Assembly: GCF_009834025.1 (NCBI RefSeq)
Contig: NZ_CP047156.1
Coordinates: 248,001-312,000 of the forward strand
Origin: Epidermidibacterium keratini
Lineage (GTDB): Bacteria; Actinomycetota; Actinomycetes; Mycobacteriales; Antricoccaceae
Direction: 5' to 3'
DNA: 64,000 nt
The notes under the pieces were generated by a model. The model was not told the DNA's origin. It ran no database searches and worked only from the letters and a program-made list of their open reading frames with translations. Positions 53,749 through 56,909 of this stretch are shown here, one piece after another; positions within the stretch are counted from its first letter, which is position 1; the number at the start of each line of letters is the position of its first letter. The translations under genes and the position numbers were made by a program.

Positions 53749-56442
53749 CTAGTGGGCGGCGTCCTCCCAGTTGGGACCGACACCGACCGAGACCTCCATC
53801 GGTACGTCGAGGTCGGCGGCCGCGGCCATCTGCTCGTGCACAATCGCCTCGACCTGCTCGCGCTCACCGGGCGCGATCTCCAGCACGAGTTCGTCGTGCA
53901 CCTGCAGCAACACCCGCGACTGCACGCCGGCCTCGCTCAACGCGCGCTCGACCCCCAGCATCGCCACCTTGATGATGTCGGCGGCCGAGCCCTGGATCGG
54001 CGCGTTGAGCGCCATCCGCTCGGCCATCTCGCGGCGCTGGCGGTTATCGCTGTTGAGGTCGGGCAGGTAGCGCCGGCGGCCCATGATCGTCTCGGTGTAG
54101 CCGGACACGCGGGCCTCAGCGACGACGTTGCGCAGGTAGTCGCGCACGCCGCCGAACCTCTCGAAGTAGGCCTCCATCTGCTCGCGCGCCTCGGCGGGCG
54201 TGATTCGCAGCTGCTGCGACAATCCGAAGGCAGACAGCCCGTAGGCAAGCCCGTAGGACATCGCCTTGATCCGCCGCCGCGTCTCGCCGTCGACATCTTT
54301 AGGCTCGATCCGGTACGCGCGTGCCGCGACAAACGTGTGCAGATCTTCGTTGGAGTTGAACGCCTCGATCAGCCCCGCATCACCGGAGAGGTGCGCCATG
54401 ATCCGCATCTCGATCTGGCTGTAGTCGGCCGTCATCAACGACTCGAACCCGGCTCCGGGCACAAACGAGCGCCGAATCTGCCGTCCCTCGGCCGAGCGCA
54501 CCGGCACGTTTTGCAGGTTGGGGTCGGTCGAGCTGAGCCGGCCGGTCGCCGCAATCGTCTGCTGGAACGTGGTGTGCACCCGGCTCGCGTCGTCGGCCAG
54601 CGGCATCAGCCCGTCGACCACGCTCTTGAGCCGACTGATGTCGCGGTGGCGCATCAGTGCGACGAGGAACGGGTGCTCAGTCTGCTCCAGCAATCCCTTC
54701 AACGCGTCTGCGTCGGTGGTGTAGCCGGACTTGATCTTCTTCGTCTTCGGCAGCCCGAGCTCGTCGAACAGCACGACCTGCAGCTGCTTGGGCGAGCCGA
54801 GGTTGATCTCGTGCCCGATGATCGAGTACGCCTCGCTCGCTACGTGTTCGACCTCGCCGCCGAACTGCTTGGACAGCTCCTGCAGGTAGTCGAGATCGAC
54901 CGCGATCCCGCGGCCTTCCATCGTGGCCAGCATCTGCGCAAGCGGCAGCTCCATATCGGCCAGCAGTCCCGCGGCGTTGCGGTCGATCAGCTCGCCGTCG
55001 AGCACGTCGCGCAGCTGGCCGGTCGCGACGGCCCGCGAGATCTGCTCGGCCGCGATCGCCTCGTCGGCCTCGTCTTCTCCCCCGTCGAGCGTGAGCTGCT
55101 CGGCGCCGGCCTGCGCCTCGGTGTGCAGCTCACGGTGCAAGTACGCCGATGACAGCGCGCCCAGGTCAAAGGTGCGCCGGCCGGGGTTGACGAGGTACGC
55201 CGCGAGCGCGGTGTCCGAGACCAGCCCCGCGAGCTCCCAGCCGCGGGCGGTGATCGCCAGCAGCGGGCCCTTCACGTCATGCACGATCTTGGGCTGCTTC
55301 GCATCGGCCAGCCACTGCCCCAGCGCCTTGTCGTCGTCGGGATCGACCGTGTCGCTGGTGATATCGGCGTACGCCGTGGTGCCGTCGACGCTGAACGCGA
55401 TCCCGGTCAGCTCGCCGGTGCCGCGGCCCCATGACCCGCGAAATGACACCGCGGTCGGCATACCGCTCGAGGCGTTGTCCTTCAGCCACGCGCCCATCTC
55501 GCCGGACGGGATCGTCTCGACGTCGATCTCGATCGCCTCGGCGACGGCCGGCTCGTCAGGGGCGAGTACGGCGTTGAGCCGGTCGCGGATCTGCCCACGG
55601 AACTGCAGCGTGTCGAAGATTTTGTTGACCGCAGGACCGTCGAGTACGTCGATCGTCAGCTGGCCGGGGGCGAGGTCGAGCTCAAGATCATCGCGCAGTT
55701 GGTTGAGCTCGAAGTTGCGCTGCACCGACGGGAGGTGATCGCGCAGTGACTGCCCGGCCTTGCCCTTGATCTGATCCAGGTGCTCGATGATCCCGTCAAC
55801 GGTGTCGTACGCCGTCAGCCACTTGGCCGCCGTCTTCGGCCCAACGCCGGGGATGCCAGGCAGGTTGTCGCTGTCTTCACCGACGAGCGCCGCGAGGTGG
55901 CGGTAGCGGTTGGGTGGTACGCCGTACTTGTCCTCGACCGCCGGTGCGTCCATGCGGCTCAGCACCGACACGCCCTGCACCGGATAGAGGACCGTCACCT
56001 CGTCGCCGACCAGCTGGTAGGAGTCGCGGTCGCCGGAGCAGATCAGCACCTCCATGCCGTCGGCCCGTGCCTGCGCGGTGAGGGTGGCGATGATGTCGTC
56101 GGCTTCGTAGTTTTCCTTCGTCAGCCAGCGGATGCCCATCGCATCGAGGACGTCCTGAATGAGGCTGACCTGCCCCTTGAACTCGTCCGGGGACTTGCTG
56201 CGCCCGGCCTTGTATTCGGCGTACGACTCGGTGCGAAACGACACCCGCGACAGGTCGAAAGCGACACCGACATGGGTCGGCTCCTCGTCGCGCAGCAGGT
56301 TGATCAGCATCGAGGTGAAGCCGTAGACCGCGTTGGTCGACTGGCCGGTCGTCGTCACGAAGTTTTCGGCAGGTAGGGCGAAGAAAGCGCGGTAGGCGAG
56401 GGAGTGTCCGTCAAGAAGCAGAAGTCGTTGCGAGTTGCTCAC
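53749..56442 (-). CDS. polA: DNA polymerase I
   Basis: About 897 residues. N-terminal 5' nuclease (RLLLLDGHSLAYRAFFALP ... GDRDSYQLVGDEVTVLYP), a middle 3' exonuclease-like domain in which the catalytic acids appear not to be conserved (as in many actinobacteria), and the polymerase domain with ATGRLSSTDPNLQNVPVR, motif A TADYSQIEMRI, the O-helix RRRIKAMSYGLAYGLSAFG and motif C QVHDELVLE. Translation starts at GTG 56442 (MSNSQRLLLLDGH), with TAGACT 7 nt upstream; leaderless and divergent from the thioesterase. Confidence 0.95.
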   Translation of the reverse strand: MSNSQRLLLLDGHSLAYRAFFALPAENFVTTTGQSTNAVYGFTSMLINLLRDEEPTHVGVAFDLSRVSFRTESYAEYKAGRSKSPDEFKGQVSLIQDVLDAMGIRWLTKENYEADDIIATLTAQARADGMEVLICSGDRDSYQLVGDEVTVLYPVQGVSVLSRMDAPAVEDKYGVPPNRYRHLAALVGEDSDNLPGIPGVGPKTAAKWLTAYDTVDGIIEHLDQIKGKAGQSLRDHLPSVQRNFELNQLRDDLELDLAPGQLTIDVLDGPAVNKIFDTLQFRGQIRDRLNAVLAPDEPAVAEAIEIDVETIPSGEMGAWLKDNASSGMPTAVSFRGSWGRGTGELTGIAFSVDGTTAYADITSDTVDPDDDKALGQWLADAKQPKIVHDVKGPLLAITARGWELAGLVSDTALAAYLVNPGRRTFDLGALSSAYLHRELHTEAQAGAEQLTLDGGEDEADEAIAAEQISRAVATGQLRDVLDGELIDRNAAGLLADMELPLAQMLATMEGRGIAVDLDYLQELSKQFGGEVEHVASEAYSIIGHEINLGSPKQLQVVLFDELGLPKTKKIKSGYTTDADALKGLLEQTEHPFLVALMRHRDISRLKSVVDGLMPLADDASRVHTTFQQTIAATGRLSSTDPNLQNVPVRSAEGRQIRRSFVPGAGFESLMTADYSQIEMRIMAHLSGDAGLIEAFNSNEDLHTFVAARAYRIEPKDVDGETRRRIKAMSYGLAYGLSAFGLSQQLRITPAEAREQMEAYFERFGGVRDYLRNVVAEARVSGYTETIMGRRRYLPDLNSDNRQRREMAERMALNAPIQGSAADIIKVAMLGVERALSEAGVQSRVLLQVHDELVLEIAPGEREQVEAIVHEQMAAAADLDVPMEVSVGVGPNWEDAAH

Positions 56443-56449
56443 GCCTGCG

Positions 56450-56459
56450 AGTCTAGGGT
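56450..56459. promoter_or_regulatory. Overlapping divergent -10 elements of polA and the thioesterase gene
   Basis: Plus strand TAGGGT (56454-56459) lies 6 nt before ATG 56466; minus strand TAGACT (56455-56450) lies 7 nt before GTG 56442. Both fit TANNNT and share the TA at 56454-56455. Neither gene has a Shine-Dalgarno. Confidence 0.6.
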
Positions 56460-56465
56460 TGGGCC

Positions 56466-56909
56466 ATGACATCCGAGGCAACCTACACCCCCACTCCGCC
56501 GCCGGCCGAGTGGGAAAACCGCACAACGCCCGACGGGCAGCTCAACGACAAGTGCGGCATCGAGGTCATCGACTTCAACCCGGCGCGTGTTGTCGCGACG
56601 ATGCCGGTCGCCGGCAACCTGCAGCCCTACGGGCTGATGCATGGCGGGGCGTCCGCCGTACTCGCCGAAGCCGTGGGCTCGACCGCCGCGGTGCTGAACT
56701 CCGAACCGGGCACCGTCAGCGTGGGCACGCAGATCATCGCCACCCACCACCGCGCCGTACGCTCCGGGGTTGTCACCGCGGTCGCGACCCCACTGCACGT
56801 CGGTCGCACCTTGAAGACGTTCCGCGTGGATATCACCGACGAAGACGGCAAGCTGGTGTGTACGGCGCAACTGTCGGCCATGACGATGCCCCAAGCCCCC
56901 GGCGCCTAA
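56466..56909 (+). CDS. Hotdog-fold thioesterase
   Basis: 147 residues. DKCGIEVIDFNPARVVATMPVAGNLQPYGLMHGGASAVLAEAVGS carries the HGG hotdog loop and the catalytic Glu that follows it, with a QIIATHHRAVRSG strand. Acyl-CoA thioesterase of the PaaI/4-hydroxybenzoyl-CoA type; substrate unknown. Leaderless start at 56466, divergent from polA. Confidence 0.87.
   Translation: MTSEATYTPTPPPAEWENRTTPDGQLNDKCGIEVIDFNPARVVATMPVAGNLQPYGLMHGGASAVLAEAVGSTAAVLNSEPGTVSVGTQIIATHHRAVRSGVVTAVATPLHVGRTLKTFRVDITDEDGKLVCTAQLSAMTMPQAPGA

Follow-up and report, generated by a model that had tools for sequence, protein, structure and literature searches.

Promoters of the PafBC type (RecA-NDp, recA P1 type) direct the mycobacterial response to DNA damage, and their motif has been published as tTGTCRgtg-8nt-TAnnnT (PMC5656591) and as TGTCGG-N10-TANNNT, with TGTCAG and TGTCAC as variants of the element in M. 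tuberculosis (PMC8151990). PafBC is switched on by single-stranded DNA and is located between the promoter DNA and domain 4 of SigA, and it is PafB that reads the -26 element (PMC11804915). Bacterial bidirectional promoters are defined by transcription start sites 7-25 bp apart (PMC10268837), and those described by Warman, Grainger and colleagues are based on the symmetry of the -10 sequence. The divergent genes prpD/Rv1129c of M. tuberculosis both have leaderless mRNAs (PMC3898074). Bidirectional promoters, divergent leaderless pairs and PafBC promoters are each already known.

The locus studied here lies in a stretch of 64,000 nucleotides from Epidermidibacterium keratini (the window), in which polA and a thioesterase gene diverge with 24 bp between their start codons and positions 56440-56468 read CACGCCTGCGAGTCTAGGGTTGGGCCATG. 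Its features are the following.

53749..56442, minus strand: polA, DNA polymerase I (NCBIfam TIGR00593, Pfam PF00476), GTG start at 56442
56466..56909, plus strand: gene of a hotdog-fold (4HBT/PaaI-like) thioesterase (Pfam PF03061, NCBIfam TIGR00369), ATG start at 56466
56450..56455, minus strand (read 56455-56450): polA -10 box TAGACT, 7 nt from the GTG
56454..56459, plus strand: thioesterase -10 box TAGGGT, 6 nt from the ATG, the same in 5/5 family genomes
56454..56455, both strands: shared TA step T56454-A56455, at -12/-11 of each -10 box
56466..56471, minus strand (read 56471-56466): TGTCAT, PafBC/RecA-NDp type -26 element of polA, coinciding with the thioesterase ATG ACA
56442, minus strand: predicted leaderless transcription start of polA, placed by the 7-nt spacing and the genome-wide peak at 6-7 nt
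56466, plus strand: predicted leaderless transcription start of the thioesterase gene, placed by the 6-nt spacing and the same genome-wide peak
56448..56461, no strand: 14-base block CGAGTCTAGGGTTG, invariant in the family and flanked by two variable spacers

The first-pass annotation of the window had reported the overlapping TAGGGT and TAGACT near the starts of polA and the thioesterase gene; the coordinates were correct, and Pfam and NCBIfam confirmed the identities of both genes. It had interpreted the hexamers as the equivalent -10 boxes of two divergent leaderless promoters. Spacing across the genome and the conservation seen in five genomes speak for a leaderless promoter on each side, but the equivalence of the boxes does not hold. 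The main element, a PafBC-type TGTC on the polA strand, had been overlooked, and the equal treatment of the two sides was wrong because the polA side is of the PafBC/RecA-NDp type; its -26 element overlaps the start codon of the thioesterase gene and renders the whole element asymmetric. We consider it probable that the locus is a compact bidirectional leaderless promoter, in which the polA side would be PafBC-type and damage-inducible and the two directions would be mutually exclusive. The positions, the spacing, the conserved -26 element, the PafBC-like gene pair and the motif sites at other repair genes are read from the sequence.

Like the mycobacterial PafBC promoters, the locus has TGTC-N12-TANNNT on the polA strand, a PafBC-like gene pair in the genome and sites at repair genes. 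Unlike them, it has AT as the third pair of bases (TGTCAT), and its element falls on the start codon of a gene that is divergent and predicted to be leaderless. With the -10-symmetry promoters it shares opposed -10 boxes having key bases in common and, as judged from sequence and predicted starts only, start sites within 7-25 bp of each other. The common form of these promoters has an 18-bp distance and pairs -11A and -7T reciprocally, whereas the window has 24 bp and shares the TA alone; it is also predicted to give two leaderless mRNAs, with an activator element on one side. The prpD/Rv1129c pair resembles the window in its divergent orientation and its leaderless mRNAs on both sides (predicted in the window), while the available part of its description mentions neither a shared TA nor a PafBC overlap (PMC3898074). 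The main texts consulted do not list polA among the PafBC targets, and they contain neither the combination with an activator element on a start codon nor the wide occurrence of the PafBC-type element at polA.

Gene statistics were obtained with a simple home-made gene finder from a sample of 864 kb that covers about 21 % of the genome. In this sample, TANNNT was found 58 times at 6 nt and 36 times at 7 nt from candidate ATG or GTG starts, while other spacings nearby had about 3 each, and about 12 % of the 766 called genes had the leaderless signature. The leaderless spacing stands out strongly in the host genome, and both polA (7 nt) and the thioesterase gene (6 nt) have the TANNNT at 6-7 nt from the start codon that is typical of actinobacterial leaderless promoters. 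Divergent pairs that are leaderless on both sides are ordinary in this genome, with 9 among 104 pairs in the sample and about 6 expected under independence.

The ATG at 56466 is the sole plausible thioesterase start in 5/5 family genomes. For polA, TANNNT was present 6-8 nt from the GTG or ATG start in 192 of 197 actinobacterial loci. The sequence TAGGTT-N7-ATG at 56472-56485 is in frame and looks like a second leaderless polA start; if it were used, polA would be expressed from the upstream ATG at 56472 via TAGGTT (56485-56480, minus strand), its transcript would start within the thioesterase gene and polA would have no use for the shared TA. We regard this as very improbable. The upstream start is not conserved, in-frame stops between the position of the ATG and the GTG back the GTG start in two of the four family relatives, and 180 of 192 loci have retained the GTG together with a -10 box 6-8 nt away.

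The window's family was represented by five genomes from three genera, all of which read TCAC-N5-CGAGTCTAGGGTTG-N4-ATGACA; the named parts are invariant and both spacers vary. The exact mirror pattern CAY-N6-7-ANNNTANNNT-N6-7-RTG was found 9 times in the genome compared to 4 times in the reversed control, a mild enrichment on which it was rejected as a generally enriched class. The polA site stands above chance because its exact form is kept in all five family genomes.

The polA strand reads TGTCAT-N10-TAGACT, similar to the published TGTCRG-N10-TANNNT, and TGTCAT lies at about -29 to -24 relative to the predicted polA start. The TGTC is 12 nt upstream of the TANNNT -10 box (TGTCATGGCCCAACCCTAGACT in the window), exactly the distance found at 146 of 192 actinobacterial loci, with at most 4 loci at any other distance. 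The TGTC element was ruled out as a sigma-70 -35 box for polA, since the spacer would be 10 bp. Most other actinobacterial polA promoters have RG(TG) after TGTC, whereas the window and all four relatives have AT at this place; the site is therefore called PafBC-type here and is no certified member of the class. It is possible that the response to PafBC is weakened or lost at TGTCAT, since this form differs from TGTCGG and TGTCAG and from the published M. tuberculosis variants.

Alternatively, the locus would be a plain leaderless pair whose -10 boxes overlap and which is free of damage control, the TGTC motif having decayed to TGTCAT in the family and PafBC being inactive there. The change of RG to AT in all five family genomes agrees with such decay, as does the near-absence of TGTCAT from leaderless motif sites of the family other than polA. 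We find this explanation rather improbable, as the element is conserved at polA class-wide and the TGTC has been retained in 5/5 family genomes in spite of its cost in codon choice. ATGACA forms the first two thioesterase codons and reads TGTCAT on the opposite strand, and TGTC is kept because the second codon is ACA. This rare codon accounts for 341 of 7,718 Thr codons (training set) and 6 of 137 Thr second codons in the 864-kb sample; it is used in all five family genomes, which are not independent of each other, and a simple probability is merely indicative.

A tandem pair of WYL genes was found in all five family genomes. The NCBIfam models of PafB and PafC gave no match to this pair; its identity came from a PDB sequence search, in which the first protein of the pair (genome G000) matched the PafB/PafBC structures 9fnd, 7p5x and 6sj9. 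The tandem genes and the PDB matches together indicate that PafBC is present in the genome. Sites of the form TGTCRGTG-N8-TANNNT numbered 18 in G000 and 1 in the control, and the leaderless form TGTC-N12-TANNNT-N6-7-RTG was found 41 times in G000 and not at all in the control. The genes behind the motif sites of the family include uvrA, uvrB, uvrD, RarA/MgsA, an exonuclease with GIY-YIG and DUF222-HNH repeat proteins, a set that from its predicted products is a DNA-repair regulon, as expected for PafBC.

The window itself has a full-consensus PafBC-type site, TGTCGGTG-N8-TACCAT, at 2685-2706 on the minus strand; the ATG of a gene for a RarA/MgsA-like AAA+ ATPase follows after 7 nt, again in a leaderless arrangement. 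HNH/DUF222 repeat-family genes, multicopy in the family genomes, lie behind PafBC-type sites at L106, L108, L113 and L126. Six identical copies of TGTCTGGGCCTAGTTGTAGCGTGTGGGTATG (G000:C1:2273058, 2879527, 2895301, 3282241, 3323551 and 3844944) are probably a mobile element whose leaderless promoter has TGTC at the distance typical of PafBC sites. At G000:C1:3834763-3835416, about 7 kb from the PafBC-like pair, lies a second gene of the 5'-3' exonuclease type.

The thioesterase direction has no PafBC element; the corresponding position reads CTCA in the family alignment. Given the polA -10 box, the plus -10 box needs just T56459 and a well-placed start codon, because the TA common to the opposed boxes is palindromic. 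That a single base is enough to create it could mean that the polA direction alone is real, PafBC-type and leaderless, that TAGGGT is the palindromic TA plus one chance T, and that thioesterase transcription starts upstream, inside polA. The mirror pattern, at 9 compared to 4 in the control, would agree with this, as would most Micrococcales, in which the plus -10 is missing while the polA element persists. T56459 is, however, A at -4 on the polA strand, a base found at 1 of the 41 other distinct PafBC-type sites of the family compared to 5/5 polA sites. Its counterpart is present at 52 of the 129 loci that have a divergent thioesterase in reach and at 1 of the 63 that lack one, and where the thioesterase start is at +12 from the TA the T at +5 is present at 9 of 10 loci, compared to 43 of 119 others. 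The GGGT and the 6-nt spacing to the ATG are invariant in five diverged genomes in which both spacers vary, and the T-bearing -10 with the same mirror geometry was found in four families outside the order (L260, L261, L263 and L264). In our judgement it is unlikely that the polA direction alone is real. The evidence for the plus direction is good at the level of sequence comparison, with few independent lineages behind it; in a relatedness-corrected test of independent pairs, the link between the plus -10 and a divergent thioesterase had 1-2 informative pairs and no power.

The divergent polA/thioesterase neighbourhood was found at 129 of 192 sampled actinobacterial loci and, by this distribution, is much older than the window's family. 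In other lineages the plus -10 is retained and the thioesterase start is further off, as at many Amycolatopsis and Kutzneria loci. At four Micrococcales loci (L022, L025, L030 and L081) the shared TA and the apparent thioesterase ATG are just 8 nt apart, which is too little for a leaderless start there, and ATGACNGACA encodes the PafBC box on the opposite strand.

In the proposed mechanism for the bidirectional promoter, a SigA-type RNA polymerase would bind the symmetric core AGTCTAGGGT facing either gene, and each mRNA would begin at its own start codon, so that both would be leaderless. Upon DNA damage, single-stranded DNA would activate PafBC and polymerase would be recruited toward polA via the TGTC, provided that PafBC uses the TGTCAT form. 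With both directions active, polA would go up and the thioesterase down in a reciprocal switch. The -26 element covers the start codon of the thioesterase gene, and polymerases bound for either direction would have overlapping footprints, so that each direction should exclude the other; given how large the polymerase is, both predicted starts, with 24 bp between them, would not be occupied together. In E. coli, strong activation of one direction can repress the other, but at basal levels the activity does not suffice for competition (PMC12825309), and this weakness of basal bidirectional promoters counts against the proposed exclusion. More tentatively, and with the odds in our view somewhat against it, PafBC sitting on the thioesterase start codon may capture polymerase at the shared -10 core, turn it to polA and shut off the thioesterase gene. 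If this were true, the same six bases would be both a start codon and the recognition element of an activator.

The locus unites leaderless mRNAs, -10 symmetry and a PafBC damage response, the last as predicted here, in less than 35 bp. As a prediction not stated in the main texts consulted, DNA polymerase I would belong to the PafBC-type regulon of most Actinomycetes. The locus also lends itself to a natural test of an activator's ability to steer RNA polymerase to one or the other orientation of a single core promoter.
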